24,520 nucleotides of DNA from a virus: the IMG/VR virus record IMGVR_UViG_3300047557_003395, positions 1 through 24,520 of that record. One strand, given 5' to 3'. Position numbers and translations under genes: made by a program. Shown here piece by piece: positions 2,549-23,279 of the stretch. The stretch's first letter is position 1. The number at the start of each line of letters is the position of its first letter. The notes under the pieces are model-generated. The model was given only the letters and a program-made list of their open reading frames with translations. It made no database searches and had not been told where the DNA came from.

Positions 2549-4444
2549 ATGTCTAAGATCATCGGTATTGACCTCGGAACCACCAACTCATGCGTGGCTA
2601 TCATCGAGGCAGGAAATTCCAAAGTAATCGAAAATTCAGAAGGTGCTCGCACTACTCCTAGTATCGTTGCCTACACCTCAGATGAAATCCTAGTTGGTGC
2701 ATCAGCTAAACGCCAAGCTGTAACAAATCCCAAAAATACAATCTATGCAGCCAAGCGTCTAATTGGACGCAAGTTCAAAGAACAGGCTGTACAAAAAGAT
2801 ATCGATCTCATGCCTTACGAAATCTTCGAAGCTAAGAACGGAGATGCATGGGTACGAGCACAGGGCAAAGAATTAGCCCCTCCACAGATTTCTGCAGAAG
2901 TTCTTCGCAAGATGAAGAAGACCGCAGAAGACTATCTCGGTGAAACCGTTACTAAAGCAGTTATTACAGTGCCTGCATATTTTAACGATCAACAACGCCA
3001 GGCCACAAAGGACGCTGGACAGATCGCAGGTCTCGAAGTTCTACGTATCATCAACGAACCCACTGCGGCTGCTCTTGCCTATGGCGTCGATAAGACAGAT
3101 AAGAAAGATCGTAAGATCGCTGTTTACGATCTTGGAGGTGGTACATTTGACGTATCCATTATCGAAATCGCAAACGTTGACGGTGACAAGCAGATCGAAG
3201 TTCTTTCCACTAATGGTGATACATTCCTAGGCGGTGAAGATTTCGACCAACGCATCATGGACTACATGGTCGATGAATTCAAGAAAGAACAGGGTGTCGA
3301 CCTAACCAAAGATATGTTAGCTTTACAGCGTTTAAAAGATGCTGCTGAAAAGGCCAAGATCGAATTATCTAATAGCAGTCAAACAGAAATTAACTTACCC
3401 TATGTCACTGCTGACGCAAGCGGCCCTAAGCATTTAGTAGTTAAATTAACTCGTGCTAAGTTAGAAAGTCTAGTCGAGGATCTAATCCAGCGTTCACTGG
3501 AGCCTTGTCGCATAGCTATGAAGGATGCGGGTGTAAGCGCCAGCGACATTGACGAAGTTATTCTTGTCGGTGGACAAACACGTATGCCTAAGGTACAAGA
3601 AGAAGTTGAAAAACTATTTGGCAAAGCACCGCGTAAGGATGTCAACCCAGACGAAGCAGTAGCAGTCGGTGCTGCTGTACAGGGTGCTGTTCTAGGCGGT
3701 GATCGCAAAGACGTTCTATTGTTAGACGTTACTCCATTGAGCTTGGGTATCGAAACCCTAGGCGGCGTGATGACCAAGATCATCCAGAAGAATACAACTA
3801 TTCCTACCAAGGGACAACAGACATTCTCTACAGCAGAAGACAATCAACCAGCTGTGACTATCAAAGTGTTCCAAGGTGAACGTGAGCTTGTTCAGCATAA
3901 CAAACTCCTAGGCGAATTCAACTTAGAAGGCATTGCTCCAGCACGTCGAGGACAACCTCAGATTGAAGTTACCTTTGACATCGATGCTAACGGTATCATG
4001 AACATCAGCGCCAAGGACAAGTCGACAGGCAAAGAAAACAAGATCACTATTAAATCTGACAGCGGATTGAACAAAGAGCAAATTGAACAAATGATCCGTG
4101 ATGCTGAAGCCAATGCCGAAGCAGATAAAAAACAACGAGAGCTTATCGAAGTTCGAAATTCTGCCGAAGCCCAAGTACATGAAGTTCGCAAAGATCTAGA
4201 AGAATTTAGAAGTGAACTTTCTGAAACTGAAATTTCAGAAATCGAAACGGCTATCAAAGATGTAGAAGAAGTAGTCAAGGGAGACGATAAAGAAAAGATT
4301 ACCGAAGCCCTTAATAAGGTTTTTCCTGCTATGAAAACACTGTTGGAAAAACGTCAGGCTAAAGATCAAGCTGCCCAAGCTTCTAATTCTAATCCCGGAC
4401 AAGATGATGTAGTAGATGCTACTTTTACTGAAAAGAAGGACTAA
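2549..4444 (+). CDS. dnaK: molecular chaperone DnaK (Hsp70)
   Basis: This is a complete 631-residue Hsp70. The ATPase domain has the phosphate-1 motif GIDLGTTNS (residues 6-14), phosphate-2 DLGGGTFD (194-201) and the adenosine motif GGQTRMPKV (341-349). The interdomain linker VLLLDV (389-394) follows, then the beta-sandwich substrate domain starting [12 protein letters not shown], then a helical lid ending [13 protein letters not shown], close to bacterial DnaK tails. It folds and unfolds client proteins by ATP cycling, normally with DnaJ and GrpE. Neither partner is in this window, so host co-chaperones may be used. Full-length DnaK is rare in phages. Its leader resembles that of hsp20, and a small phage gene is coupled to its stop (TAATG). 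No frameshift or missing motif was seen. Confidence 0.97.
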
Positions 4445-4629
4445 TGATGGCAGGCAAAGGATCTAGACCTCGTCCATTCAGTGTCGATCAAAAAACTTTC
4501 GATACTAATTGGAATGCTATCTTTAAAAAAGAACAATCTGTAATTGAAGAAGTTTCTAAATTCATTTCAGAAGAAACTTTTCAAGAAACAGACAACAGAA
4601 TTACCGACCACTCGGGTGAGGGTCAGTAA
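4444..4629 (+). CDS. small conserved phage protein (GKGSRPRPF type), 61 aa
   Basis: The start ATG shares a base with the dnaK stop (TAATG); a second ATG follows directly at 4447. The N-terminus MAGKGSRPRPFSVDQKTFD, followed by a 'N-x-x-AIF-K' segment, resembles a family of short proteins that I recognise as frequent in T4-like aquatic phages and that has no known function. The basic, proline-containing start and acidic tail suggest a soluble protein. Its place between dnaK and hsp20 suggests co-expression with the chaperones but does not show a chaperone role. Confidence 0.82.
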   Translation: MMAGKGSRPRPFSVDQKTFDTNWNAIFKKEQSVIEEVSKFISEETFQETDNRITDHSGEGQ

Positions 4630-4631
4630 TA

Positions 4632-4668
4632 GGGCATAAGGCCCATTTATCTTACTTTAATAGGAGAT
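4632..4668 (+). promoter_or_regulatory. hsp20 leader: hairpin plus candidate RNA thermometer
   Basis: GGGC (4632-4635) pairs with GCCC (4641-4644) over an ATAAG loop. Downstream, ATCTT (4649-4653) can pair with GAGAT (4664-4668) across a 10-base loop and so cover the AGGAG ribosome site 5-10 bases before the ATG. Order, spacing and sequence match the dnaK leader, although these are different genes. CCCATTTA at 4642-4649 also resembles a sigma32 -10 box, but no CTTGAA-like -35 was found at the right distance. Confidence 0.5.
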
Positions 4669-4673
4669 TTAAA

Positions 4674-5111
4674 ATGACACAATTAACACGTTATGATGTA
4701 AATGCTTTAAGCAAAGCACTGGTAGGTTTTGATCGTATCTTTGATGATATGGAACGTAGATTTGCTAATCAAATTTCAAGCAATTATCCTCCGTTTAATA
4801 TCGCCAAGATGGCCGACAACCTTTACGATATTTCAATAGCAGTCACAGGTTTCGACAAAGAGGAAATCACTGTTCAGGTAGAAGCCAATGAGCTTACTGT
4901 TCGTGGCGAAAGAAAAACAGCCGATCAACCAGAACCCGAATATCTACATAGGGGTTTGGCTCTTCGTGATTTCGAAAGAACTTTTACGTTAGCGGAACAC
5001 ATGAAGGTTCGTAAAGCAGAAATCAAAAATGGCATTCTCTTAATCCAAATTGAAAGAGAAATTCCAGAAGAAATGAAACCTCGTGTTATTGACATTGTAG
5101 AAGTAAAATAA
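4674..5111 (+). CDS. hsp20: small heat-shock protein Hsp20 (IbpA-like)
   Basis: The 145-residue protein is a class A bacterial small heat-shock protein. The N-terminal region contains VGFDRIFDDMERRF as in IbpA/IbpB. The alpha-crystallin domain runs from about YPPFNIAKMADNLYDI to the NGILLIQIERE strand. The conserved YLHRGLALRDFERTFTLAEH segment is intact. The C-terminal tail contains a KPRVIDI segment where the I-x-I/V motif normally docks on a neighbouring subunit. These proteins hold denatured clients for DnaK without ATP, and dnaK lies just upstream. Hsp20 genes are common in T4-like cyanophages and pelagiphages, where capsid assembly or stress roles have been suggested. It follows its own structured leader and ends before a hairpin terminator. 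Confidence 0.95.
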   Translation: MTQLTRYDVNALSKALVGFDRIFDDMERRFANQISSNYPPFNIAKMADNLYDISIAVTGFDKEEITVQVEANELTVRGERKTADQPEPEYLHRGLALRDFERTFTLAEHMKVRKAEIKNGILLIQIEREIPEEMKPRVIDIVEVK

Positions 5112-5117
5112 TATAAT

Positions 5118-5141
5118 ATAAGGGAGGGGAACCTCCCTTAT
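5118..5141 (+). terminator. hairpin terminator after hsp20 (GGAA loop)
   Basis: AAGGGAGG (5120-5127) pairs perfectly with CCTCCCTT (5132-5139) over a GGAA (GNRA) tetraloop, and two further A-T pairs extend the base to 5118-5141. It is followed by TTAAATAA rather than a solid T run, and AT-rich sequence precedes it. It likely ends or protects the 3' end of the dnaK-hsp20 message. Confidence 0.7.
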
Positions 5142-5148
5142 TAAATAA
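5141..5148 (+). promoter_or_regulatory. weak candidate late promoter (TTAAATAA) before clpS
   Basis: The TAAATA core directly follows the terminator and sits 24 bases before the clpS ATG, leaving room for the AGGAG site at 5155-5159. It matches the T4 late consensus at fewer positions than those at 2460 and 6675, so it is only a candidate. Confidence 0.3.
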
Positions 5149-5164
5149 CAACGTAGGAGAAACT

Positions 5165-5464
5165 ATGTCAATAGAAACCAGTGTAGAAGAAAAAGTAGTG
5201 GTCGCTTTACAACCTCCGAAATTGTGGAAAGTGATACTTTTAAATGACAATCAAACCCCCATGGAATTAGTTATTGACATCTTAACTAAGATTTTTAAAC
5301 ATAATGAATCTAAAGCCAAAGATATCACTTTGGAAATTCATGAAACAGGAAGCGGTGTCGCTGGAATCTATCCTTTCGAAATTGCTGAACAAAAGGGTAT
5401 TGAAGCTACAGGCGTAGCTAGACAACACGGATCGCCTTTACGCATAACAGTGGAACAAGAATGA
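5165..5464 (+). CDS. clpS: ClpS, N-end-rule adaptor of ClpAP protease
   Basis: The 99-residue protein has the full ClpS core: WKVILLNDNQTPMELVIDIL, then a helix, ITLEIHETGSGVAGIYPFEIAEQK, and AR..GSPLRITVEQE. ClpS binds proteins whose N-terminal residue is bulky and hydrophobic and hands them to ClpA. Pocket residues of E. coli ClpS map here to Asn27, Asp28, Met33 and His59, but the second acidic residue (E. coli Asp36) is Asn29. The flexible N-terminal extension needed for delivery is present (about 20 residues). AGGAG precedes the ATG. The stop overlaps the heme oxygenase start (ATGA), linking protein turnover and bilin genes in one message. A phage ClpS could redirect the host protease. 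Confidence 0.93.
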   Translation: MSIETSVEEKVVVALQPPKLWKVILLNDNQTPMELVIDILTKIFKHNESKAKDITLEIHETGSGVAGIYPFEIAEQKGIEATGVARQHGSPLRITVEQE

Positions 5465-6051
5465 GTCTAAGAGAGATTACCAAAGATCTGCATCACGAAG
5501 CAGAAATTACAAAGTTTGCAAAATTATTATTGAGCGGAAAGATTGAACGTGAAGATTATGCAAAATATCTTTATCAATTAGTTTTGATTTACCCCATTAT
5601 CGAGATGGGAAATAAAGTTTTAGGTAATCTCGATAAACTAAACGGAATTGAACGCAGCTTTGCTATATATCAAGATTTCATAGAACTAGCTGGAAAAGAT
5701 CATTCTTATAAATGGCTTCCGCAAACTGTAGCATATCATAATTATTTGTTAGAAATTTTAAATGATACAGAACGTAAACATTTGATCAAAGCACATTTAT
5801 ATTGTCGTCACATGGGAGATCTAAATGGCGGTCAAATTATAAAGAAACAAGTAGCACATATTTCTAAAGGTCGCTTTTACGATTTTAAAAATCCAGACGA
5901 ACTTAAAGTAGCTATACGATCCGAACTCACTGACGATTTGGGGGATGAGGCTCGAGTGGCTTTTGAATGGGCTATCAAGATGATGAGAGAATTATACGAT
6001 GAGCCAAGTTTGGTCGACATTAATAGAGATACAGAACCTACTGGTTGCTGA
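5461..6051 (+). CDS. ho: heme oxygenase
   Basis: The 196-residue protein is a canonical heme oxygenase, which opens heme to biliverdin IXalpha, iron and CO using oxygen and reduced ferredoxin. The start LREITKDLHHEAE aligns with the LREGTKKSH..AE of cyanobacterial HO1 and places the heme-ligating proximal His at His11. The distal helix motif is RHMGDLNGGQ (Gly119-Gln125), with the flexible glycines that cover the heme. It begins in an ATGA overlap with clpS and its last 53 bases overlap the bilin reductase, so the two enzymes are surely co-translated. Cyanophages carry similar enzymes for pigment synthesis; here no photosystem gene is visible. The C-terminus is slightly shorter than cyanobacterial HO1. 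Confidence 0.95.
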   Translation: MSLREITKDLHHEAEITKFAKLLLSGKIEREDYAKYLYQLVLIYPIIEMGNKVLGNLDKLNGIERSFAIYQDFIELAGKDHSYKWLPQTVAYHNYLLEILNDTERKHLIKAHLYCRHMGDLNGGQIIKKQVAHISKGRFYDFKNPDELKVAIRSELTDDLGDEARVAFEWAIKMMRELYDEPSLVDINRDTEPTGC

Positions 6052-6679
6052 ATTTTCTAGAACGGGCGTAGAAGTAAATGAGCCCGGCATGGAAAGATTC
6101 AATCAACCCGGTTGGGTCAACAGAGTCTGGAATTCAGAAAATTATCGCAGAGCTCACGTAGATGTAGTAGATGCTCGAGAAACTAAAGGACTGTGGATGA
6201 TGCATTGTTGCGTTTTCCCGCACATACATAATCCTGCTCCTATTTTTGGTTTCGATGTAATCGCAGGAAAAAATAAGATCACAGGCTGTTTTATAGATTA
6301 TAGCCCTACAACAGATCGAAATCATCCAATGATCGAATATTTTGCCGAAGAAGTCAGCAGATACGATTGGATCAAAAAACGTGAACTTCCTGAATGGGCT
6401 CAACGTATTTTTAGTCCCTATATGGTCGCGGCAGGAAATGTCAACGATCAAAGCGAATTATCCCAGATCACTAGTCTAGCCCGAATACTAGTAAACCATT
6501 ACTTAGAAACCGTGGGTGAAACCAATCACAAAGTAGCAGATACTACATTTGAACAAAACTACTACGCACAAAATCAAAAGCAAAACCCTCATACACCGCG
6601 TGTAATGGTCAGTTTAGGGCTTTCAGAAGAGGATGTTAAGGTCTTTATACAGGATTGCCTGTTCCCTGAAATACGATAA
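5999..6679 (+). CDS. pcyX: ferredoxin-dependent bilin reductase (PcyX/PebS type)
   Basis: The 226-residue protein belongs to the ferredoxin-dependent bilin reductases (PcyA, PebA/B, PebS, PcyX), which reduce biliverdin to phycobilins. The signature core is MMHCCVFPHIHNPAPIFGF followed by DVIAGKNKITGCFIDYSPT. Asp86 corresponds to the central catalytic Asp of PcyA (Asp105). The N-terminal WSTLIEI helix fits the family, which supports the start at 5999 despite a 53-base overlap with heme oxygenase; a later in-frame ATG at 6089 would cut conserved sequence. Cyanophage PebS and oceanic-phage PcyX are four-electron enzymes making phycoerythrobilin. The PcyX assignment is from recalled similarity and the absence of photosynthesis genes, and is less sure than the family. 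Paired with heme oxygenase it completes heme to bilin. Confidence 0.88.
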   Translation: MSQVWSTLIEIQNLLVAEFSRTGVEVNEPGMERFNQPGWVNRVWNSENYRRAHVDVVDARETKGLWMMHCCVFPHIHNPAPIFGFDVIAGKNKITGCFIDYSPTTDRNHPMIEYFAEEVSRYDWIKKRELPEWAQRIFSPYMVAAGNVNDQSELSQITSLARILVNHYLETVGETNHKVADTTFEQNYYAQNQKQNPHTPRVMVSLGLSEEDVKVFIQDCLFPEIR

Positions 6680-8240: not shown

Positions 8241-8271
8241 TCTAAATACTAATACCGTGTACCGGGAGCGA
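8241..8271 (+). promoter_or_regulatory. candidate late promoter and ribosome site of the csg operon
   Basis: TCTAAATA (8241-8248) matches the TAAATA core of T4-like late promoters. It is followed, after about 15 bases, by GGGAGCGA (8264-8271), a ribosome site of the same unusual form as before three other genes, then ATG at 8276. The 70-base gap between 8206 and 8275 holds nothing else I can identify. Confidence 0.45.
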
Positions 8272-8275
8272 AAAA

Positions 8276-8782
8276 ATGAGAAGTGCAAAAGTAATTTTAA
8301 TTACGTTGTTGATACCTTCAGTGGTCTCGGCAGCAGAATTAGTTCACAATTTTAATAGTCCAGCTTTTTCTGGAATTGGTTATAGTTCTCACGTTCTAAC
8401 GATCAAACAGTTAGAAGATCAGCAGAAAGATAAAAATAAAGCAGCCGCAGAAGCCTTACAGGCTAAAATGGAAAGAGATGCTGCTAATACCCCTGTGGCT
8501 AGATTCCTAGCTAATGTAGAATCTAGAATTTTTTCACAGTTAGCTAAACAAATGACTGATAGCTTGTTTGGAGAAGGCGTCAACGCCTGCGCACCAACTG
8601 CTGCTAATGCTGCGACCATTAATTATTGTGGAACCATTAATAATGTAGGCGGCGAAGAAAATGGTAGTACGATTAGATGGTGGATCACAGAAGGAACTAA
8701 CGGAAATATGATCCACATAAATGTAAACGGTCCTGGCGGAAATACCACTATGGTAATTCCTGCTAATACGTTCTTTTTCTAA
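8276..8782 (+). CDS. csgF: CsgF-like curli secretion accessory protein
   Basis: The 168-residue protein has a Sec signal peptide (about residues 1-19, cut after VVSA). Its mature N-terminus is AELVHNFNSPAFSG, resembling the CsgF start T-F-Q-F-R-N-P-N-F-G-G, the segment that plugs into the CsgG pore. A helical linker, VARFLANVESRIFSQLAKQ, and a beta-rich C-terminus follow, as in CsgF. In E. coli CsgF sits on the outer side of CsgG and couples secretion to nucleation of the amyloid fibre at the cell surface. It lies directly before csgG, the expected order. It is about 30 residues longer than E. coli CsgF, the extra part being a Lys/Ala-rich helix and a Cys-containing segment (NACAPTAANAATINYCG) that may form a disulfide. 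Confidence 0.87.
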   Translation: MRSAKVILITLLIPSVVSAAELVHNFNSPAFSGIGYSSHVLTIKQLEDQQKDKNKAAAEALQAKMERDAANTPVARFLANVESRIFSQLAKQMTDSLFGEGVNACAPTAANAATINYCGTINNVGGEENGSTIRWWITEGTNGNMIHINVNGPGGNTTMVIPANTFFF

Positions 8783-8791
8783 GGATAGCAT

Positions 8792-9949
8792 ATGAGAAGA
8801 ACATTAATGTCATTAGCAATAGTAACACTGCTTGGAGGCTGTGCGACTGGATCTGCTATCAGAGAACAGCTGACCGGAAATCAATTTGATGAGCCCAAAA
8901 CCGAACCAAGCGTACTTTTGAAAAAAGATCAATATCAAGTTCCACCGCCCGCTGGTGGACCAATCACTGTAGCTGTTTATACCTTCTTAGATAAAACAGG
9001 GCAAAGAAAATCTCAGCAAAATATCGCTAGTTTAAGCTCTGCTGTAACGCAAGGTGCTGAAAATTATCTTATCAAGGCTCTACAAGATGCCGGAGATGCA
9101 CGTTGGTTTACAGTAGTTGAACGTGTCGGGCTAGATAATCTAATCAAAGAGCGTCAGATGATTAGACAGATGCGCGAGCAATATCAGGGAAAAGATGCTA
9201 AACCTTTGCCTCCTATGATGTTTGCAGGTGTTATTGTTGAAGGTGCAATCGTAGGATACGATTCAAACACACTAACTGGTGGAAGCGGATTTAGATTCCT
9301 AGGAATCGGAGCGACTACTCAATATCAGAGCGATACAGTTACAGTGGTATTAAGAACTGTGAGCGTAGCGACCGGAGAAGTTTTAACATCTGTTACTATA
9401 ACAAAAACTGTGTTAAGTTACATGGATAAACTAGGAGTTTTAAAATTTGTTGAACAGGGAACACAGGCAGTTGAAGCAGAAACGGGAGCCAGCATCAATG
9501 AAAGTATTAACAAAGCTACGAATATTGCGATTCAGGCAGCAGTAGTCTCAACTATTCGAGAAGGTGCAAGAAAAGGACACTGGGCATTTAAAGAGGAGGA
9601 AAAAACTAATGAGTTGGTACAAAAGAATACCCCATCTAAAACAGCCCCCGAAACAGCACCCTCGACACCAAAGTCCGATGAGCCAAGAATTATACCAACA
9701 GAAAATTCACCAGTGCTTGACGGATCAGGAAAGCCAATCGCAAATGTTGAAAGGCAGGGAGATACAAAAAAAGGAACAGTGACAGACTGGGTGAATTTAA
9801 GAGTTGGCAAAGATCGAGGCAGTGATATTATCATAAAATTAAAACCAAATTCAGTGATCGAACTAGTCAGCGAAGCAGGAGAACACTATTACGTCAGGGT
9901 TGACGGAAAGGAAGGTTGGATAGCGAAGAAATTTATTAAGGTACAATAA
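8792..9949 (+). CDS. csgG: CsgG-like outer-membrane curli secretion channel with added SH3 domain
   Basis: The 385-residue protein is a lipoprotein (lipobox LLGGC, Cys17) closely following CsgG: VAVYTFLDKTGQ, WFTVVERVGLDNLIKERQ, VEGAIVGYDSNTLTGGSGF, FLGIGATTQYQSDTVTVVLR and VSVATGEVLTSVTITKT-VLSY. CsgG forms a nonameric outer-membrane channel that exports unfolded curlin subunits. E. coli CsgG is 277 residues. Here a Pro/Thr/Ser-rich linker (about 270-325) leads to an extra bacterial SH3 domain (about 327-385, ending GWIAKKFIKVQ), which may bind peptidoglycan. By hand alignment the pore constriction Tyr51/Asn55/Phe56 is replaced by Gln76/Ser80/Leu81, although a one-residue gap makes this tentative. 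Nine bases separate it from csgF, so it is one operon. Confidence 0.95.
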   Translation: MRRTLMSLAIVTLLGGCATGSAIREQLTGNQFDEPKTEPSVLLKKDQYQVPPPAGGPITVAVYTFLDKTGQRKSQQNIASLSSAVTQGAENYLIKALQDAGDARWFTVVERVGLDNLIKERQMIRQMREQYQGKDAKPLPPMMFAGVIVEGAIVGYDSNTLTGGSGFRFLGIGATTQYQSDTVTVVLRTVSVATGEVLTSVTITKTVLSYMDKLGVLKFVEQGTQAVEAETGASINESINKATNIAIQAAVVSTIREGARKGHWAFKEEEKTNELVQKNTPSKTAPETAPSTPKSDEPRIIPTENSPVLDGSGKPIANVERQGDTKKGTVTDWVNLRVGKDRGSDIIIKLKPNSVIELVSEAGEHYYVRVDGKEGWIAKKFIKVQ

Positions 9950-9979
9950 CAATAATAATAACGTACCAAGGAGCGAACA

Positions 9980-10777
9980 ATGATTAAAAATAATTACAGC
10001 AAAATGGCCTTTATAATGGCGGCCATGTTTTGGGGATCGGGAGTCTACGCACAGACTGCCGCAACAGGCCCAAACAAAGTATACATAGAACAATTAGGAA
10101 ATTCTAACACGATTACTATACAGCAAGTAGGAGGTACCAATAATGTGGGCGGCACTAATACCACATCTACTACTGTTAGCACAACTTCGCCTATAGGAAT
10201 AACTACCTTAGTTCCTGAAGCGCCAAGTTCTTCCAACTATGCTACTATAACAGGCAGTTCTAATACCCTAGCAATTACTCAAACAGGAGATAGCAACTCG
10301 GCTCAATATAATATCAAAGGTAATAATAATGCCTACACTAGCACAGTTACTGGAGATGGAAATCAAACTAAATTAACTGTGGGAAATGTAAACACAAACG
10401 GTCTAAGAAATGTTATTACAGAAACTATAACCGGAGACAATAACTTAGTCATTCAAAATGTAGTAGGAACAGATAACTCTACTATTACATCTATCACGGG
10501 AAATAGTAATCAGATTACTAGCGATCAGACCACTAGCTATGGAACTATTACCAATACCGTATCTGGTAATTCGAACGTATTTAATATACAACAAATCGAT
10601 GCTGGGCCTCATATTTTAGCAATGGCCACAACAGGTGATTATAACAGTATTACTACGCAACAACAAGGTACCAATGCTACTACTGTTAATATACAAACAA
10701 CAGGAAGTCATAATACCATTACCGTGAGAAGCAGCAGTTCTGCTATAGTTTCTCCTCAAACCGCAGTCGGGAGATAA
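9980..10777 (+). CDS. curlin-repeat secreted protein (CsgA/CsgB-like), 265 aa
   Basis: After a signal peptide (cleavage about residue 24, VYAQ) the protein is almost wholly Asn/Gln/Thr/Ser/Gly-rich with curlin-type repeats. The best is VYIEQLGNSNTITIQQVG (about residues 34-51). Weaker ones follow: ATITGSSNTLAITQTGDSN, ITGDNNLVIQNVVGTDNS, VSGNSNVFNIQQIDAG and TTGDYNSITTQQQGTN. Each is a strand-loop-strand with N/Q/G at turn positions as in CsgA, which stacks into cross-beta fibres. It probably is the fibre subunit exported by the adjacent CsgG/CsgF. The ribosome site is GGAGCGA (9970-9976). The repeats are irregular, with loops rich in Thr and Ser, so amyloid formation is an inference. No membrane segment is present after the signal. 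Confidence 0.87.
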   Translation: MIKNNYSKMAFIMAAMFWGSGVYAQTAATGPNKVYIEQLGNSNTITIQQVGGTNNVGGTNTTSTTVSTTSPIGITTLVPEAPSSSNYATITGSSNTLAITQTGDSNSAQYNIKGNNNAYTSTVTGDGNQTKLTVGNVNTNGLRNVITETITGDNNLVIQNVVGTDNSTITSITGNSNQITSDQTTSYGTITNTVSGNSNVFNIQQIDAGPHILAMATTGDYNSITTQQQGTNATTVNIQTTGSHNTITVRSSSSAIVSPQTAVGR

Positions 10778-10780
10778 TCC

Positions 10781-11878
10781 ATGCATTATCTCCTGCTGTT
10801 TTTGTTGGTAGTGATAAACAATTACGCTCAAGCAGGAATAGGAGTTGTATCAGATGCAAAGGGCACTTCGTGTCAAATAGAACGAAATAAAAATAAGATG
10901 GCAGGCACTAAAGGTGCTCAGGTTGAAAGCATGGATACGTATTCAACCGGAGCCTGTGTTAGCAATATAACTTTCAAAGATGATAGTAAAGTTAAGATTA
11001 CTGAAAACTCTAGATTAGTCATAGACGATTTCGTGTTTGATCCTAAAAAATCAGATGCCGGAAAAATAGGAATGAAAGTCGCTATGGGCACTGTTCGTAT
11101 GGCCAGCGGACAGATAGCTAAAAATAATCCACAACTAGCAAATATTAAAACACCTACAGCGACTATATCTGTTAGGGGTACAGATTTTTCTATGACCGTA
11201 GACGAAACCGGCCAAAGTTTGATAATGTTGCTTCCCAGCTGCAAAGAAGAAAGCGAGATGAAAAAATACGAGCTTGATGAACAGCGTTGTAAAGTAGGCA
11301 AGATCATTGTAGAAAACAGTGCAGGCATCGTAGAACTTGATAAAGCATTTGAAGCCACTTATGTGATCAGTAATTCTATTGTTCCTAGCCCGCCTGTGGT
11401 AGTTAATACCATCGAATCTAAAATCGGCAATAATTTAATTTTAGTGCAACCTACAGAAGTAGCAAACGCGGTCAAAGAACAAAGAAAAAGTCAAAGAGAT
11501 AAAGATTTAGAAGAGATGGAGGCAGAGGCTCAAAGAAGAATATCTCAAAGAATTGAGAAAGCCAACGAAGAGAATAAGAATGCAGAACTTTTACCTTTTA
11601 CATTTGACACAGGATCCAAAGGTTGTAATCCCAGTCTTAATGTTTGTGTAGCTTGGGAAAAAGCAGATGCTCCAGATATACAGAGTAAGGGAAGAGGCAT
11701 AGCATTTAGATCTAACGAAGATCACTATGCTGAAGTTAAGACCACAGGTTACGGTTCAAATACCTATGTGGCTATCATACACAACGATCAACACGCCGAC
11801 GCTATCATAGGTGATGGTAGTCCCGGGGGTAATGTTGTAATCATACGTCAAAGCTCCGGAGTTTTGAGAAGACCATGA
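10781..11878 (+). CDS. secreted FecR-domain protein, 365 aa
   Basis: The protein has an N-terminal signal peptide (cut near AQAGIG), then a FecR-type domain (about residues 20-180). The domain shows ITFKDDSKVKITENSRLVIDDF, KVAMGTVRMASGQIAK and TPTATISVRGTDFSMTVDE, the usual pattern of FecR domains found outside iron-siderophore systems. A charged coiled coil follows (about 225-268), then a Cys-containing beta-rich C-terminus (about 270-365). FecR domains of this secreted kind often sit beside CHASE2 cyclases in bacteria, and one lies two genes downstream. It could sense or bind something in the periplasm or at the surface. The start lies 3 bases after the curlin stop and the end overlaps the next gene in ATGA. 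Confidence 0.87.
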   Translation: MHYLLLFLLVVINNYAQAGIGVVSDAKGTSCQIERNKNKMAGTKGAQVESMDTYSTGACVSNITFKDDSKVKITENSRLVIDDFVFDPKKSDAGKIGMKVAMGTVRMASGQIAKNNPQLANIKTPTATISVRGTDFSMTVDETGQSLIMLLPSCKEESEMKKYELDEQRCKVGKIIVENSAGIVELDKAFEATYVISNSIVPSPPVVVNTIESKIGNNLILVQPTEVANAVKEQRKSQRDKDLEEMEAEAQRRISQRIEKANEENKNAELLPFTFDTGSKGCNPSLNVCVAWEKADAPDIQSKGRGIAFRSNEDHYAEVKTTGYGSNTYVAIIHNDQHADAIIGDGSPGGNVVIIRQSSGVLRRP

Positions 11879-13512
11879 TTGTAAGAATACTTGCTATTTT
11901 ATTTTTACTAGTATCATCGGTCGCTCATTCAGCAATCACCGATGGTAAGTTTGGTATTAATCAAATATTTGACGTGCAGTACTATTGGAGTGGCACTACA
12001 TTAAATGCCAGCAATTTCATAGCACCATACGATAAAAACTTTCAAACAGTTACAGTAACCAGTGGACAATATTTTCAATTCTTCGCCAGTACAACTAATC
12101 CTGGCAAATACGGTCTGGGTCTTTATAATAGCAACGGTACATTAGCCAAAGTCGTTCACGACTATGGTGACATAACTGCGTTAGGTAGTGGTGCTATATT
12201 TTATATAGGTTCGGGTTTCTTTGGTAACGTTATTAGTACTGCACAAGGTTACAGTTACGGAGCTAGTGCTACATTTACTAACATGGATACCAGCGTATCA
12301 TCAACAGACTTATCTAATTATACATGGGCCAGTACAACTCCGTTAGCCTCCGGACAAACTGCGGCTCCGGCCGGACCACCACCACCTGCACCTACGGCGA
12401 TTTATAATACAAGTTCTACAGTTTATATTACTAATCATTATCCAACCAGTAATAATAGTCCTGCAGGGGAAGGTGCTGCAAATGCCTTTGATAACAATCC
12501 TAATACCAAGTATCTAAATTTTGATAAAAAGAATGCTGGTGTGACAATAAAATTAAATCAGGGAAGAGTTGTTACTGGATTTACATTAACAACAGCTAAT
12601 GATTTTAGTGGTCGAGATCCTACAAGTTATAAACTATACGGAAGTAATGATGGTGCAAATTGGACACTAATCCAAGACGGAACGTTGTCTCTCAGTGAAA
12701 GTCGTTATTGGACCAGCTCTACTATTCCTGTTACTAATTCTACTGCTTATGTTTATTATTACATTTTTTTTCCTACTACCAAAGCAGGTGATGGATGCGG
12801 GTTGAATTGCAATAGTATGCAGATTGCAGAAATTACCTATTTCTATGACGCTAACAATACTACAACTTCAACGGCCACAGGAACATCAGTGAGCAATCCA
12901 GGAAGCTATTGCTGTGGAGGCGGTGAATCACCGTTCAATGCCAATGCATCCTTTTCGTCAAGGGTACAAACATTCACCAATAGAACAACTGCCGATAATC
13001 AAGTGTATATCGAACAAATAGGAAATTCAAATACTATAACTGTTCAGCAATCTGGAACTAGAAATAATTATGTTAATTATTACGGAAACGGAAGCTCAAA
13101 CACTGTAACTATAACTCAAATTGGAAATGCATCAACGACTGCAAATTACATTGAGTTGGATCTAGGAACCCAAACGGTTTCAGCTAATTTAAATACTGTG
13201 AACTTACAGCAGAACAGTACTGGAGGTTCAAAAAGAATCCTAGCCACAGTTACTGGAAATTCTAACACACTGTTAATACAACAGAAAGATAGCGGTAATC
13301 ATTACGCAGAAGTAAATCTCACAGGAGGAAATAAATCTGTCGACCTTACACAACAGGGTTCAGCCGGACATATGGCTAATATAGGATTACACGGTAATTC
13401 AACATCTTTAACTCTAACACAGAGCGGTTCTACACAACAGTTTTATAGTATAAATCACACCTGTACTACAGCCGGCGGATGTGCAGCTATTACTGTAACA
13501 CAAGGTCAATAA
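11875..13512 (+). CDS. discoidin-domain and curlin-repeat fusion protein, 545 aa
   Basis: Three parts can be seen after a signal peptide (about residues 1-19). First is an N-terminal beta-rich region of unknown kind ending in a Pro-rich linker (AGPPPPAPT). Next comes an F5/8 type C (discoidin) domain at about 183-323, with AANAFDNNPNTKYLNF, YKLYGSNDGANWTLI and MQIAEITYF. A Ser/Thr/Cys linker leads to curlin repeats from residue 377 to the end, opening with VYIEQIGNSNTITVQQSG. That opening is nearly the same as the first repeat of the upstream curlin. Discoidin domains bind sugars or lipids, so the protein may nucleate or cap curlin fibres while carrying an adhesive head. It begins in an ATGA overlap with the FecR gene. 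Confidence 0.88.
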   Translation: MIVRILAILFLLVSSVAHSAITDGKFGINQIFDVQYYWSGTTLNASNFIAPYDKNFQTVTVTSGQYFQFFASTTNPGKYGLGLYNSNGTLAKVVHDYGDITALGSGAIFYIGSGFFGNVISTAQGYSYGASATFTNMDTSVSSTDLSNYTWASTTPLASGQTAAPAGPPPPAPTAIYNTSSTVYITNHYPTSNNSPAGEGAANAFDNNPNTKYLNFDKKNAGVTIKLNQGRVVTGFTLTTANDFSGRDPTSYKLYGSNDGANWTLIQDGTLSLSESRYWTSSTIPVTNSTAYVYYYIFFPTTKAGDGCGLNCNSMQIAEITYFYDANNTTTSTATGTSVSNPGSYCCGGGESPFNANASFSSRVQTFTNRTTADNQVYIEQIGNSNTITVQQSGTRNNYVNYYGNGSSNTVTITQIGNASTTANYIELDLGTQTVSANLNTVNLQQNSTGGSKRILATVTGNSNTLLIQQKDSGNHYAEVNLTGGNKSVDLTQQGSAGHMANIGLHGNSTSLTLTQSGSTQQFYSINHTCTTAGGCAAITVTQGQ

Positions 13513-13515
13513 ATA
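13508..13515 (+). promoter_or_regulatory. candidate T4-like late promoter (AATAAATA)
   Basis: AATAAATA overlaps the stop codon of the curlin-discoidin gene and ends 5 bases before the ATG at 13521, the same spacing as at 6675-6688. No ribosome site lies between. A late start here would give a near-leaderless message for the small secreted protein and the cyclase. Confidence 0.45.
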
Positions 13516-13520
13516 CTTTT

Positions 13521-13811
13521 ATGAAAAAACTAGCATTGTTCCTATTGGTACCATCTTTCGTATGGGCACAAGGATCTACTACTGTAGAAAAACCTGTAGT
13601 TTGTAATTGGACATCTGTGGTTTTAGATACCCTAAGAGAAAAATATCAAGAAGAACCTGTATGGTTAGGAAAAGATGCTAAAAGTCAATACACATTATTT
13701 GTTAATCAAAAAACTGGCGCTTTTACCATAGTGCAGTTCAACAATGAAATAGCCTGTATACTAGGGGCCGGAGAATCTAGTATAAATCTACCTAATAAAT
13801 CTAACATATGA
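13521..13811 (+). CDS. small secreted hypothetical protein, 96 aa
   Basis: I chose ATG 13521, not an upstream in-frame start at 13479, because the resulting N-terminus MKKLALFLLVPSFVWAQ is a clear signal peptide and the longer version would bury it. The mature part (about 78 residues) contains one early and one late Cys (PVVCNWT and EIACILGAGE) that could form a disulfide, plus EEPVWLGKD and TGAFTIVQF. It is presumably periplasmic or exported. I do not recognise a named family; it does not look like CsgE or CsgC. It overlaps the cyclase start by 4 bases (ATGA), so they are likely co-translated. Confidence 0.82.
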   Translation: MKKLALFLLVPSFVWAQGSTTVEKPVVCNWTSVVLDTLREKYQEEPVWLGKDAKSQYTLFVNQKTGAFTIVQFNNEIACILGAGESSINLPNKSNI

Positions 13812-15859
13812 AGATTAATTTCAAAAAAATATTAGTCAGTCCTTGGACAGCATTGATTACATTGGCACTTATTTTAAGTATACGAATTGTCGATCCTGTC
13901 TTTATAGAAAGTGTAAGATTACGATATTTCGATACACTGATCACAAACAAAGCACCCACAGAAAATAATATAGTAACAGTAAACATAGATGAGAATGCGT
14001 TGGATTCGTATGGACAATGGCCGTTCAAAAGAGACATCTATGCTAATCTCATAGAAAATCTATATAAAAGAAATGCAGGATTAGTAGTATTCAATGTTTT
14101 AATGACTGAAAAAGATCGTCAGGGAGGTGATAGTTCATTAGCAGCTACACTAAATGAATTTCCTGTAGTTCTTCCCAACATGCCTGCAGATCGTATGAAG
14201 AATGTTCCTAGACAGCCAGGTACTGCGGTTATAGGAGCAGAACATCACGAGATGATAATCGCATATCCTGGAATTATCGCTAACATACGGGACCTTGAAA
14301 GTCGTGCAGCAGGCGTGGGTATTGTGAATACACTACCAGAAGTTGATGGAGTTAATCGTCGCATGCCGTTAGTAATTGCAGTCAATGGTAGAGTGTATCC
14401 TAGTCTTGCTATGGAGGCATTGAGAATAGCCGCAGGCGATAGTACTACGCAGATTAAACTTAATGAGAACGGTGTAGAAAAAATGCGAATACCTGCATTT
14501 GGTCCTATTACTACAGATAGCCTAGGTCGTGTATGGATTGATTGGAGTCAAAAGTCTCGTTCAGTATCCATGACTGAATTACCTAAAGATTTTGGTGGTT
14601 CTGTAGTTATTGTAGGTGTAGCTGCTGCAGGTTTAGGTAATCCTGTGCCTACCGCAGTAGGTGCAGTATGGCCACACGAAGTACAGGCTGCGGTATTAGG
14701 TACGATGTTTAATAATGTAACCATACAACGACCTGATTACGCAGACGGTTTAGAAATTCTAACATTAGCGTTGGCAGGTGTTCTATTAATATTTTTAACG
14801 AGGTATGTATATGCGGGTTTGGCAACGACGGTTATACTTATCGGTGGCAGTGCTATTGGCAGTTGGTATGTGTTCACTAATCATCTATGGTTATTTGACG
14901 CTACTGCCCCTGGAGTTGGCCTACTTGTGGTCGCTCTGCATGCCTATGGGGTTAAGTTTGTAAGCGAGTTCTTACAGAAGCAAGCGATCAAAAAACAGTT
15001 TGCAGGTTACTGTTCCAAAGAAGTAGTAGAGATGCTACAGAAAGATCCAGACTTAATCAAGCGTGGTGTACGCAAAGATGTGTCAGTTATGTTTAGTGAC
15101 TTACGTGGATTTACCCCGATCGGTGAACACTACGGCGATAATGTTGCAGGCTTAGCCAAATATATGAACGGATATATGGATGCTATTAGCCAACCTATAT
15201 TAGATAATAATGGTATGGTCATTAAGTATGTAGGAGATGCATCAATGCACATACACGGTGCTCCTATCGATGATCCCGATCATGCACATACAATGATCAA
15301 AGTTGGTCTCGAAATGTTGGATGCTGTTGATCGTTATACAAAAGAAATGGAAGCACAGGGCCTACCGCCCGCAGCTATGGGTTGGGGTGTAAACAGTGGT
15401 ATAGGATTTATTGGTGAAATGGGCAGCACTGATAGACACAGTTATGATATCTTAGGTGATATGGTCAGTACCGCCGCACGTTTAGAAGCACGTTGCAAAG
15501 CCTACGGTGTTTTAAACATAGTCGGCGCAGAAACTTACAATCGTACTAAAGATGATTTCTTCTACTTGATGTTAGACAATCTACAGCCTAAGGGTAAATC
15601 AGTAGCAGATTTAATCTATACAGTGTTAAGAACTAATGGTGCTGATTATACTAGAGATAAGATAGCACACGAAGTAATGCACGATTTATATAAGCAGAAA
15701 AATTTCGACGAAGCTGCCGATATGTGTAAAAAATTAAAAGGCAACTTCGGCGGACAGATGGACAAGTATTATAAAATTTGGATTGAACGATGTGAGTTCA
15801 TGAAGCAGCAGGACCTTCCAGAGAATTGGAACGGAGAATTTATAGCCCACGAAAAATGA
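13808..15859 (+). CDS. CHASE2-domain class III adenylyl cyclase
   Basis: The 683-residue membrane protein starts with one TM segment (about 10-28) and a periplasmic CHASE2 sensor domain (about 30-310: LRYFDTLI, VTVNIDENALDSYGQWPFKRD, VWPHEVQAAVLGTM). A block of about three TM segments (315-395) follows, then a class III cyclase domain (about 425-600). Metal-binding Asp are Asp431 (MFSDLRGFT) and Asp477 (KYVGDASM). The base-specifying pair is Lys473 and Asp547 (YDILGD), typical of ATP-using cyclases. The transition-state Arg is Arg558, but the usual Asn four residues before it is Ser554. It would make cAMP in response to a periplasmic signal. FecR-CHASE2-cyclase neighbourhoods are known in bacteria but unexpected in a phage. 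Alternative: a poorly active or signal-only cyclase. Confidence 0.93.
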   Translation: MKINFKKILVSPWTALITLALILSIRIVDPVFIESVRLRYFDTLITNKAPTENNIVTVNIDENALDSYGQWPFKRDIYANLIENLYKRNAGLVVFNVLMTEKDRQGGDSSLAATLNEFPVVLPNMPADRMKNVPRQPGTAVIGAEHHEMIIAYPGIIANIRDLESRAAGVGIVNTLPEVDGVNRRMPLVIAVNGRVYPSLAMEALRIAAGDSTTQIKLNENGVEKMRIPAFGPITTDSLGRVWIDWSQKSRSVSMTELPKDFGGSVVIVGVAAAGLGNPVPTAVGAVWPHEVQAAVLGTMFNNVTIQRPDYADGLEILTLALAGVLLIFLTRYVYAGLATTVILIGGSAIGSWYVFTNHLWLFDATAPGVGLLVVALHAYGVKFVSEFLQKQAIKKQFAGYCSKEVVEMLQKDPDLIKRGVRKDVSVMFSDLRGFTPIGEHYGDNVAGLAKYMNGYMDAISQPILDNNGMVIKYVGDASMHIHGAPIDDPDHAHTMIKVGLEMLDAVDRYTKEMEAQGLPPAAMGWGVNSGIGFIGEMGSTDRHSYDILGDMVSTAARLEARCKAYGVLNIVGAETYNRTKDDFFYLMLDNLQPKGKSVADLIYTVLRTNGADYTRDKIAHEVMHDLYKQKNFDEAADMCKKLKGNFGGQMDKYYKIWIERCEFMKQQDLPENWNGEFIAHEK

Positions 15860-16020
15860 TTTATACTCCCTTAGATTGGTGGTTTGACTATTCAGTTTGG
15901 TTGATGTTACAATATAAGTTTGCATCCCCAGCTAAATTTATTAGTGTCAACGATGACATGGAAAAATTCTTAAAGCAGTTCAGTCTCAACGGTATCAAAC
16001 AATTCAACATCTGTAGATGA
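15856..16020 (+). CDS. small hypothetical protein, 54 aa
   Basis: The ATG lies in an ATGA overlap with the cyclase stop, and the TGA overlaps the next ATG in the same way, so it is fixed between two genes by coupling. The protein starts MIYTPLDWWFDYSVWLMLQYK and ends GIKQFNICR. It is rich in aromatic residues near the start, perhaps amphipathic and membrane-associated, but there is no clear membrane segment. No family was recognised. Confidence 0.72.
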   Translation: MIYTPLDWWFDYSVWLMLQYKFASPAKFISVNDDMEKFLKQFSLNGIKQFNICR

Positions 16021-16736
16021 TAAACAAATTAATTTTAGTCATCGTGATAACGATGATGAGTTCCTTTGCATTCTCTAATCCTATTACAGCACAATCGTGG
16101 TTAGTAGCAGATGCAGAGGGAAATATCGTCGCCTCTGAGAATACACGAGAAGTACGCAGCATCGCCAGTATCACAAAAATAATGTCGGCGATGGTAGTCT
16201 TAGATGCCAATCAAGATCTAGACGAATTCATAAAACCTTACACTCGTAGAGAACTTATACAATTATCTATGGTACGTTCTGATAATAGAGCAGCAGATAC
16301 ACTATGTCGACATTACCCCGGCGGATATTCTAATTGTATCACAGCTATGAATCTAAAGGCGCAAAGCCTAGGATTAGTAAACACAAAATTTGTAGATGCT
16401 ACTGGACTTGGGGTTATGAATGTTAGCACTGCTTTAGAATTAGTTAAGATAGTTCAGGAGTCCAGTAAATACGCAGAACTAGTCCATGCCAGCAGAATGA
16501 GCGCAGTTAAGATACAAATAAGAAAGAAATGGCTAGTTTTTAATAACACCAATCCTATCATTGGTAAGCGTCATGAATTTATTATAAGTAAAACAGGTTG
16601 GATTAGAGCCTCAGGCGGGTGTATCGTTATGATGTTAGATACAGATATTGGTAGAAGAATTGTAATAGTATTAGGCTCTAAAAACACTCATACACGAATT
16701 CCAGAAGCAGAATTTATAGCGTTGATTAAAAATTAA
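16017..16736 (+). CDS. D-alanyl-D-alanine carboxypeptidase-like protein (peptidase S11)
   Basis: The 239-residue protein has a signal peptide (about 1-20) and the three motifs of penicillin-binding serine peptidases: SITK (Ser51 nucleophile, Lys54), SDN (88-90) and KTG (192-194, in ISKTGW). These match the PBP5/6 (S11) family, which trims the terminal D-Ala of peptidoglycan stem peptides in the periplasm. The helix around FVDATGLG is also typical. The usual C-terminal domain and membrane anchor of PBP5 are missing, leaving a compact catalytic domain. In a phage it could weaken or remodel the wall during lysis or during export. It overlaps the upstream gene by ATGA and its stop overlaps the stop of a minus-strand gene. 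Confidence 0.9.
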   Translation: MINKLILVIVITMMSSFAFSNPITAQSWLVADAEGNIVASENTREVRSIASITKIMSAMVVLDANQDLDEFIKPYTRRELIQLSMVRSDNRAADTLCRHYPGGYSNCITAMNLKAQSLGLVNTKFVDATGLGVMNVSTALELVKIVQESSKYAELVHASRMSAVKIQIRKKWLVFNNTNPIIGKRHEFIISKTGWIRASGGCIVMMLDTDIGRRIVIVLGSKNTHTRIPEAEFIALIKN

Positions 16737-17128
16737 CCTTCCCCGGAAGCTGCTGTTTTTTTATCTTCTTCGTCGATATCATCTCTGCGTTTAAAAGTTT
16801 GATCGTCTTTTTTGGTGCTGTGAGATACAGCTTGATTGAATTTATCAGAAGCTTCTCTTTCTACTTTTACCTGTTCCATCACTCGATCGCCTTCGATGAT
16901 TTTACCACGAAGATGTAGAACTGTATTAACTTTCTGATTCAAACGGATTAGATCGTTGTCTAACATACGGATACGATCTATCAGAGCAACTAGAGTAGTA
17001 TTGGCTTCGCCTATCACTGGTTTGACTTCTTTAGTACACCATTCCCACACATACTTAATGATCCAACCCATGCCCACAGCCATGACTATAGGAAAACCAT
17101 ATTTGTTAATTAGTTCTACGACGTCCAT
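16733..17128 (-). CDS. holin-like membrane protein with coiled coil, 131 aa
   Basis: One N-terminal membrane helix (INKYGFPIVMAVGMGWIIKYV) is followed by a heptad-like helix (TTLVALIDRIRMLDNDLIRLN) and a long charged, Lys/Asp-rich tail. The G-F-P-I plus membrane helix plus coiled coil layout resembles small phage membrane proteins of the holin or YvrJ kind. It is related to the first gene of this operon (17662-17943), which suggests duplication. An AGGAG site lies before the ATG and the previous stop abuts that ATG. Function as a holin is a guess from topology. Confidence 0.78.
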   Translation of the reverse strand: MDVVELINKYGFPIVMAVGMGWIIKYVWEWCTKEVKPVIGEANTTLVALIDRIRMLDNDLIRLNQKVNTVLHLRGKIIEGDRVMEQVKVEREASDKFNQAVSHSTKKDDQTFKRRDDIDEEDKKTAASGEG

Positions 17129-17269
17129 TTATTTCTCCTTGTCCCAGAATCCCCAGGGATTGTAAATTTTCTTTTCTAATTTTTTCGGTTCATAACAATA
17201 CCATACAGCCACTGAAATCAACACCAGGCATTCCAACAGATAAAAAATTAAAAATGATTCAAATAACAT
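17129..17269 (-). CDS. small single-pass membrane protein, 46 aa
   Basis: I chose the ATG at 17269, which shares a base with the upstream stop (TAATG). A longer reading from 17317 would overlap the neighbour more and lacks support. The protein begins MLFESFLIFYLLECLVLISV, one hydrophobic helix, then a basic tail YEPKKLEKKIYNPWGFWDKEK would be cytoplasmic by the positive-inside rule. Its stop directly abuts the next ATG. No family was recognised. Confidence 0.7.
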   Translation of the reverse strand: MLFESFLIFYLLECLVLISVAVWYCYEPKKLEKKIYNPWGFWDKEK

Positions 17270-17469
17270 TAGCCTATTAAAGGTTTGAAAGTTTGTACGA
17301 CAGGTCTCCATGCCCACTCATAACCCACTACCAGACCCACTACAAACCCCACGACCGCTCCTATCGCTAAGGCTTTATATAAATCTCTATCATGCCAAAC
17401 GGGTTGTTTCTTTAGATACTCCTGCATCTGGGGACTAAGACTGTCCCACCACGCCTGATATTTGCTCAC
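17269..17469 (-). CDS. small membrane protein with glycine-rich TM helix, 66 aa
   Basis: The start is GTG (complement of 17467-17469) with GGGG nine bases upstream; a later in-frame ATG is possible. A soluble N-terminus MSKYQAWWDSLSPQMQEYL leads into a helix with regularly spaced Gly and Val (AIGAVVGFVVGLVVGYEWAW), a glycine-zipper-like membrane segment suited to helix packing or oligomers. It resembles short proteins I associate with T4-like aquatic phages, of unknown function. It overlaps the upstream gene by 35 bases. Confidence 0.75.
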   Translation of the reverse strand: MSKYQAWWDSLSPQMQEYLKKQPVWHDRDLYKALAIGAVVGFVVGLVVGYEWAWRPVVQTFKPLIG

Positions 17470-17653
17470 TTTCTGTTGCCCCTTTGATAATAAATTTTTC
17501 TAGATCACTAACTTTTAACAAAATTTGACGACCATTTATATTGACTAATTTAAAATAGTCCCCACCCTTCCAGCCTAGTCTATCCGAATTGAATTCTTCA
17601 TCTAAAATAATACCGTTTGGGCTACAATCCCATTGATAGTCAACATATAACAT
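17435..17653 (-). CDS. small hypothetical protein, 72 aa
   Basis: This is a soluble protein with no membrane segment. It starts MLYVDYQWDCSPNGIILDEE and has a strand-rich centre GWKGGDYFKLVNINGRQILLK. The pattern (acidic strand, G-D-x-F-x-L-V, G-R-x-x-L-x-K) looks like a small beta barrel, but no family is certain. It starts 8 bases after the stop of the first gene in this operon and overlaps the next by 35 bases. Confidence 0.75.
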   Translation of the reverse strand: MLYVDYQWDCSPNGIILDEEFNSDRLGWKGGDYFKLVNINGRQILLKVSDLEKFIIKGATESEQISGVVGQS

Positions 17654-17661
17654 TTCGTTCT

Positions 17662-17943
17662 TTAATCCCTTCTTGCGTCATTCTTACCATCCGCTCTAGC
17701 AATACGATCTACATCGGGTTTAAGACCAAGGGCGTTTGAAACGATAGTATCGATTCGAACTACATCGTGATTCATGGTTTTGACCCGATTATCCAAAGCA
17801 ACGATGATACCTTTCATACCATTGATACTGCCCAATACACCCTGCAATAACAATTTGATAGTTAGATATACAAAGTAGCCGCCGGCCAGTGCTACGGCGA
17901 TTGGAAAACCCAAATCACCGATTAATTTGAAGATTTCATTCAT
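17662..17943 (-). CDS. holin-like membrane protein with coiled coil, 93 aa
   Basis: This is the first gene of the five-gene minus-strand operon. An N-terminal hydrophobic stretch (LGFPIAVALAGGYFVYLTIK) forms one membrane helix, perhaps followed by a second short hydrophobic segment. A helix with heptad spacing (GIIVALDNRVKTMNHDVVRI) and a charged tail follow. It shares G-F-P-I, the helix position and the [IL]VAL-D-R-[VI]-[KR]-[MT]-[ML] stretch with the last gene of the operon, so the two are likely paralogues. The ribosome site is AGGAGCGAG. Lysis or membrane function is possible but unproven. Confidence 0.8.
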   Translation of the reverse strand: MNEIFKLIGDLGFPIAVALAGGYFVYLTIKLLLQGVLGSINGMKGIIVALDNRVKTMNHDVVRIDTIVSNALGLKPDVDRIARADGKNDARRD

Positions 17944-21927: not shown

Positions 21928-22200
21928 GTGTTAATTTCTGTAAATCATTGGCGGTTTGAGGACGGAAAAACTTGTCCTAATCCCGGCAGTCGTTGGGAAA
22001 TGACGCCTCCGCCCCGGGGATGGTACTGTTGGGTTTATCCTAAAGACAACAATGAATTTTTAGATTGGATGGAAAAGAATTGTCCTACATCAGATTGTAC
22101 TCCTAGATTCAATTCAGGTGATCCTATGATCACTGTGTATATCAAAGAAGATCGAGAAGCAACATTATTTCAATTAGCGTATGGGGATCACATTAGATAA
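21928..22200 (+). CDS. tandem-family small protein 1 (F-x-L-x-[WY] C-terminus), 90 aa
   Basis: The start is GTG with GGAG seven bases upstream. The protein has a Trp-rich N-terminus (NHWRFEDG, RGWYCWVYP), then a helix FLDWMEKNC, then a C-terminal strand-helix, ITVYIKEDREATLFQLAYG. The W-M-x-x-N-C and D-R-E-A-T-x-F-x-L segments recur in the following small genes, making this the first of a run of paralogues. It is soluble; function is unknown. Confidence 0.8.
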   Translation: MLISVNHWRFEDGKTCPNPGSRWEMTPPPRGWYCWVYPKDNNEFLDWMEKNCPTSDCTPRFNSGDPMITVYIKEDREATLFQLAYGDHIR

Positions 22201-22210
22201 GGGTGTAAAG

Positions 22211-22450
22211 GTGGCTAGTGTGGACGAGATCTTGGCGACAAGATCTCGTGCCACCTATTCCCATCGTATCAATTTTTCTACAGTCGGATATGGGGTTAAA
22301 GATCAGATGAATCGTTGGTGCGAAGAAAATTGCCGAGGTGCTTGGCACTCCGAAACATACTTCGCTCTGTATTGGCAGTTCACCGAAGAACGAGATGCTA
22401 CTATGTTTATGCTACGCTGGGGCGGCGCAGAAGGAAATAAAATAAGATGA
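22211..22450 (+). CDS. tandem-family small protein 2, about 79 aa
   Basis: I chose the GTG at 22211 because AAGGG (22199-22203) is seven bases upstream. An ATG at 22181 would overlap the previous gene by 20 bases and has no ribosome site. The family features are the helix MNRWCEENC and the C-terminal YFALYWQFTEERDATMFML followed by RW. It shares W-x-E-x-N-C and D-A-T-x-F-x-L with its upstream neighbour, so they likely arose by duplication. The start remains uncertain. It ends overlapping the next gene (ATGA). Confidence 0.78.
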   Translation: MASVDEILATRSRATYSHRINFSTVGYGVKDQMNRWCEENCRGAWHSETYFALYWQFTEERDATMFMLRWGGAEGNKIR

Positions 22451-23278: not shown

Positions 23279-23279
23279 T

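Follow-up and report, generated by a model that had tools for sequence, protein, structure and literature searches.

A phage-borne curli-type module with its own fibre subunits and a FecR/CHASE2 cyclase arrangement

What does a phage do with a curli secretion operon: does it keep an outer-membrane channel, or does it export a fibre of its own? The question is raised by a 24,520-base virus record of IMG/VR (IMGVR_UViG_3300047557_003395) from a water-dwelling phage; the whole record is called the window here. One of its strands (plus, 8276-15859) encodes CsgF, CsgG, a curlin-repeat protein (Cur1), a FecR-domain protein, a second curlin-repeat protein (Cur2), a secreted protein of 96 amino acids and an adenylate cyclase with a CHASE2 domain. 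The genes lie 0-30 nucleotides apart, and there are two 4-nucleotide overlaps (FecR/Cur2 and small protein/cyclase). We consider it slightly better than an even bet that the phage module carries out functional curli export during infection, with FecR and the cyclase sensing the envelope. The purpose of the export is less certain than the export itself.

The initial annotation, made from the sequence alone, had proposed that an apparent phage genome holds a five-gene type VIII secretion operon supplying its own fibre subunits, and had called for profile searches and a comparison of gene order. Curated Pfam cut-offs were exceeded by CsgF (8276-8782, 168 residues with a signal peptide; PF10614, E=4.4e-9; phrog_35372, 3e-28), CsgG (8792-9949, a 385-residue lipoprotein pore; PF03783, 1.3e-48), the secreted FecR-domain protein (10781-11878, 365 residues; PF04773, 4.5e-10; 71/71 orthologues), Cur2 (11875-13512, 545 residues; PF00754, 3.3e-11; PF07012 (Curlin_rpt), 8.1e-5) and the cyclase (13808-15859, 683 residues; PF05226, 3.8e-39; PF00211, 8.3e-16; phrog_35576, 2.4e-188). 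Cur1 (9980-10777, 265 residues) alone fell below, and was identified by a family profile, its repeat count and an AlphaFold model. These matches confirmed the five genes (8276-13512), and the same gene order was found in other phages. The interval credited with five secreted products (8276-13811) does contain those five, but also a sixth, the 96-residue protein (13521-13811, plus strand; weak phrog_25396 match, 0.003), which occurs in 20/164 loci and each time directly before the cyclase. The operon had been ended too early, as it continues into the cyclase to 15859; both this cyclase and the ligand-binding domain of Cur2 had been overlooked. The absence of CsgE and CsgC was upheld in the window and in 13 related records (CsgD was not searched for).

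Modules of this kind have been described before. Zaragoza-Solas et al. (2020, PMC7029224) reported CsgF/CsgG in phages and raised the idea of "sibling capture". Wittmers et al. (2022, PMC9599517) described csgF-csgG-curlin-FecR-curlin-cyclase in pelagiphages, identified the fibre genes, FecR and the cyclase, reported the module genes as expressed in metatranscriptomes and proposed that the module came from Alphaproteobacteria. The fibre subunits, put forward in the initial annotation as an unusual feature, are therefore not one, the full set including FecR having been published in 2022, and the uses it suggested (aggregation, superinfection block) are those already listed in these two papers. 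The window module is a further member of this published kind, with details that sharpen the mechanism. HTVC008M (KC465899), methylophage Melnitz (MZ577097) and the pelagiphage type VIII secretion system share its gene order and strand; relative to HTVC008M and Melnitz, its CsgG is 42-45% and its cyclase 36-46% identical. They likewise have no CsgE or CsgC, as reported for alphaproteobacterial and phage curli versions (PMC9599517). The window differs from the pelagiphage module in the SH3-like C-terminus of CsgG, the F5/8 type C domain of Cur2, the small secreted protein before the cyclase, the DnaK-Hsp20-ClpS-haem oxygenase-PcyA neighbourhood with no histidine kinase in front, and relatives of 280-364 kb. 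With E. coli curli (csgBAC/csgDEFG) it shares CsgG, CsgF and curlin repeats, but it lacks CsgE and CsgC, adds FecR and the cyclase, has Leu in place of Phe56 and encodes much longer fibre subunits. The Caulobacter holdfast anchor HfaA/HfaB/HfaD is similar in having a CsgG-like protein, HfaB, with amyloid-like partners. It differs in that the window CsgG matches the NCBIfam HfaB profile at 0.003 versus 3.4e-52 for CsgG, and no holdfast genes accompany it.

Two scans of viral contigs gave 160 loci with 103 distinct CsgG proteins. Loci retrieved via CsgG had undergone no selection for curlin. Among the distinct proteins, CsgF was encoded upstream in 103/103, a curlin gene directly followed in 98/100, FecR was present in 91/91, and a cyclase lay within 9.5 kb in 67/74. 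Two viral loci (L051 and L161) have no recognised curlin gene right after csgG. The ratio of nonsynonymous to synonymous substitution rates (dN/dS), taken over nine pairs of which eight are independent, had medians of 0.09 for CsgF, 0.10 for CsgG, 0.06 for Cur1, 0.09 for FecR, 0.13 for Cur2 and 0.12 for the cyclase. These values indicate purifying selection on all six measured genes, strongest on Cur1. Conservation of curlin beside CsgG and constraint on every gene argue against a lone pore whose fibre genes are decaying.

We then consider the secretion pore. CsgG carries the LGGC lipobox of a lipoprotein and aligns with the solved CsgG chains 6lqh, 3x2r and 6si7 (E 1e-47 to solved chains). 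Its C-terminal domain (approximately residues 330-383) is SH3-like (Pfam SH3_3, E=1.2e-6). A C-terminal extension reading as SH3-like is found in roughly 40 of the 103 viral CsgGs, the Pfam test having been applied to the window copy only. CsgF retains the pore-plug motif FxSPxFxG, with F26, S28, P29, F31 and G33 conserved; judged by its sequence, this is the counterpart of the pore-lining N-terminal motif of E. coli CsgF. A single-sequence search of CsgF against the PDB returned chance matches only, despite the clear Pfam match. The E. coli CsgG constriction consists of Tyr51, Asn55 and Phe56 in mature numbering (Tyr66, Asn70 and Phe71 in PMC7304575). This canonical ring is not preserved in the window CsgG, which has Gln, Ser and Leu at the three positions. 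Position 56 is Phe in 74/74 bacterial CsgGs, and position 55 is Ser in 73/74 of them; among the 103 viral proteins, 78 have Leu at position 56 and 25 have Phe.

For the fibre itself, Cur1 by itself does not reach the cut-off of Curlin_rpt (E=0.011), but 56/69 of its orthologues match that family (best 1e-16), and the Cur1 family profile matches the solved curlins 8c50 (1e-17) and CsgA 8enq (0.0016). It contains 16 GxxN units versus 3.2 in shuffled sequences (0/2000 shuffles reach this number), spaced mostly by about 11 or 22 residues. AlphaFold models the protein as a regular, all-beta chain with 21 strands and a predicted local distance difference test score (pLDDT) of 82. Cur1 is the probable major fibre subunit. 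Cur2 combines a variable N-terminal part, which holds an F5/8 type C domain (residues 192-286), with a C-terminal curlin block (about 380-520). A comparison of 59 Cur2 proteins found F5/8 type C domains in 14-15, PA14 in 7, GLEYA in 3 and Curlin_rpt in 35, revealing a modular protein in which a conserved curlin tail follows an exchangeable N-terminal part. Between loci L034 and L042, for example, CsgG is 94% and Cur1 97% identical, whereas Cur2 is 64% identical. Cur2 is probably the adhesive subunit, because known F5/8 type C, PA14 and GLEYA domains are ligand-binding, with sugars frequent among the ligands. At many loci, glycosyltransferases and other surface-sugar enzymes are inserted between Cur2 and the cyclase.

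The role of FecR was interpreted previously as that of a ferric citrate regulator (PMC9599517). The window protein has a signal peptide followed by a FecR periplasmic signalling domain, with no cytoplasmic anti-sigma part seen, and the N-terminal part of its model matches the cell-surface signalling domain of PupR in a structure comparison (6ovk, E=1.3e-4). No genes for an extracytoplasmic function (ECF) sigma factor or a TonB receptor were noticed in the annotated window. An iron-regulatory role for the phage "FecR" is improbable. Of the 80 CHASE2 matches in 30 alphaproteobacterial genomes that encode CHASE2 proteins, 27 have a FecR domain within 5 kb, versus 0.7 expected, and a FecR/CHASE2-kinase operon of Burkholderia contaminans was reported to be necessary for biofilm (PMC5192318). 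On these two grounds, FecR-CHASE2 looks like a general sensor pair which the phage module includes. The Burkholderia operon (BiofilmReg) also places a secreted FecR-domain protein beside a CHASE2 sensor, but there CHASE2 is on a histidine kinase, the FecR protein has LysM, and curli genes are absent. In the window, the cyclase joins an extracytoplasmic CHASE2 sensor to a cytoplasmic class III cyclase part, which retains the catalytic metal Asps, the Arg and the Lys/Asp pair of adenylate specificity. In profile comparison, the C-terminus of FecR (residues 290-365) is similar to the Cur2 curlin tail (hhalign E=1.6e-4, probability 51%, versus 0.4-0.9 for other parts used as controls), and HYAEV..TG is visible by eye in both. 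This resemblance suggests that FecR may contact the fibre.

Under functional curli export, CsgG would insert into the outer membrane as a lipoprotein pore with its SH3-like tail pointing into the periplasm, and CsgF, by homology, would plug and extend the pore via its conserved N-terminal motif. Cur1 would be exported unfolded and polymerise into a surface fibre. Cur2 would leave by the same route, dock on the fibre through its curlin tail and display its swappable ligand-binding domain, making the fibre adhesive. FecR would remain in the envelope and form, together with the CHASE2 cyclase, a sensor reporting the state of the envelope or fibre as cyclic AMP (cAMP). The likely benefit would be an altered cell surface, by which competing phages are excluded and/or neighbouring host cells are retained and aggregated. 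A more specific version is possible but doubtful: the curlin-like C-terminus of FecR would dock on nascent or stalled periplasmic curlin, upon which the CHASE2 cyclase would raise cAMP, and the Cur2 domains would vary the adhesion target by phage.

Several facts weigh against this export model. The strongest is that Melnitz-infected cells did not clump in cytograms or electron micrographs (PMC9004378), although aggregation is only one possible use and the absence of clumping does not cover others. Without CsgE, export may be inefficient, and the constriction ring of CsgG is altered from Phe to Leu. A Foldseek search of the PDB with the Cur1 model produced nothing confident (best E 0.098), and the curlin-like tail of FecR is supported by one modest profile score. 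Finally, the cyclase lacks the transition-state Asn, which is Ser in 55/60 viral CHASE2 cyclases and is retained by bacterial relatives, so that catalytic activity is uncertain.

Some of these facts fit a different proposal, made for Melnitz by Buchholz et al. (2022, PMC9004378), in which CsgG/CsgF is repurposed as a gated, pinholin-like pore of the outer membrane, for lysis or depolarisation, that times lysis; the curlins would then be accessory plugs. The missing fibres and clumping with Melnitz, the absence of the CsgE gate and the loss of the constriction Phe in most phage CsgGs are consistent with it, as are two features flanking the operon. The first is a promoter-like motif with the conserved core TAAATACTA (8242-8250, plus strand; here ctAAATACTAa), about 30 nucleotides upstream of csgF. 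TAAATAC is present in 50 of the 103 distinct csgF upstream regions versus 1.1 expected, 43 of them with the TAAATACTA context, and CTAAATA occurs in the window once, at this motif (6.4 expected by chance). The motif also lies upstream of other phage genes. It is similar to T4-type late promoters (TATAAATA), and Melnitz gp23 has TATAAATA at -40; this likeness suggests a late-class promoter and late expression. The gp23 genes of the large contigs lack a leader, and no copy of the motif was seen close to them. The second feature is an S11 D-Ala-D-Ala endopeptidase (PBP7-like; 16017-16736, plus strand; PF00768, 3.3e-36; NF008668, 2.1e-45) with intact SxxK/SDN/KTG motifs, whose gene lies near the module in 44/164 loci; it is uncertain whether it is part of the module. 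We nevertheless regard a lysis pore as unlikely, given the almost invariable curlin gene after CsgG and the constraint on Cur1. It leaves no role for a FecR/CHASE2 sensor or a ligand-binding adhesin, and it was proposed with csgA/csgB taken as missing, whereas Melnitz has two annotated curlin-repeat genes.

The late-type motif and the variable ligand-binding domain of Cur2 could also be accommodated if the same fibres scaffolded or decorated lysis debris and virions, for example holding progeny near new hosts, instead of altering the infected cell. As the CHASE2 cyclase implies action in a living cell, we find this quite unlikely. Very unlikely, in our judgement, is an uptake channel (PMC7029224, PMC9599517), in which an open CsgG pore admits cofactors, iron complexes or peptides that serve phage replication and FecR acts as an iron-related regulator. 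Haem oxygenase encoded upstream can free iron from haem, but the conserved curlin genes would be unexplained, neither an anti-sigma part nor an ECF sigma partner was noticed for FecR in the annotated window, and the bacterial context of FecR is CHASE2 sensors. It is exceedingly improbable that this block comes from a bacterial chromosome or has decayed to a relic, since the few contigs labelled as bacterial metagenome-assembled genomes (MAGs) that carry whole-module relatives are short and one (L170) has phage virion genes (phrog_3287, 5e-77), the bacterial csgG loci sampled have neither FecR nor a cyclase nearby, all genes are intact and constrained, and the T4-type major capsid protein gp23 is encoded on related viral contigs of up to 364 kb.

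A bacterial origin was also sought by a search for phage-like CsgG across 84,980 species genomes. Among the resulting 80 loci, the whole module was found only on short MAG contigs. Contigs with the phage curli module (L164, L165, L167, L170, L172 and L173) were binned as Rhodobacteraceae, Flavobacteriaceae, Maricaulis, Saprospirales and Synechococcus; they are probably phage contigs within bins, and one of them, L165 (36 kb), shows no clear phage hallmark. The phage setting of the operon is borne out by the virus record itself, by baseplate genes adjoining the module in HTVC008M and Melnitz, and by gp23 in six contigs of 104-364 kb. No longer contig placed the block in a bacterial chromosome, and contigs of 280-364 kb that hold the module also have T4-type capsid genes. 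Because contigs of this size carry gp23, the module reaches large phages beyond the pelagimyophages of about 140-150 kb, an extension of which we found no report in the open-access literature. Within the window, DexA and S21 are among the genes of phage type, and there is no capsid or tail gene.

The DnaK-Hsp20-ClpS-haem oxygenase-PcyA order is the usual upstream neighbourhood across loci. In the window, DnaK, Hsp20 and the protease adaptor ClpS stand in a row (2549-5464), a host-like chaperone set kept upstream in many viral loci. Overlapping genes for a haem oxygenase (PF01126, 6e-22) and a PcyA-like bilin reductase (PF05996, 6e-17) follow at 5461-6679; most large-contig relatives have this pair immediately before the curli operon. 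Its nearest isolate counterpart is in pelagiphage Mosig (51%), and it corresponds to the hemO-pcyA/X cassettes of PMC11480375. A cyanobacterial host, considered from PcyA, was rejected: psbA was absent from 22 related records, and pelagiphage Mosig has the same pair. Phytochrome as the bilin user was likewise rejected, no PHY domain being found. Further upstream, an enzyme of the GMP reductase/IMP dehydrogenase family (820-1839; PF00478, 7e-65) lies beside ribosomal protein S21 (568-807). Downstream, on the minus strand, a run of small holin-like proteins (16733-17943) has N-terminal hydrophobic segments (MDVVELINKYGFPIVMAVGMGW, MNEIFKLIGDLGFPIAVALAGGY), and similar 93-residue genes of relatives lie after the TAAATACTA motif. 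Tandem short related open reading frames (21928-24149, 75-90 residues) ending in ...LFxLxW/MFxxRW are apparently diverged duplicates. Rfam and tRNA scans of the window gave no matches.

With a curlin gene consistently close to CsgG and under the strongest constraint of all, the comparison weakens the published reading of a lone pore. It also suggests that FecR, so far taken as an "iron regulator", is one half of a general FecR-CHASE2 sensor. Nor is the module confined to pelagiphages, being common in large-contig viruses beside haem oxygenase and bilin reductase. If it works as we infer, planktonic bacteria without curli would gain a new adhesive surface from the phage during infection, and this would have consequences for superinfection, aggregation and transmission.

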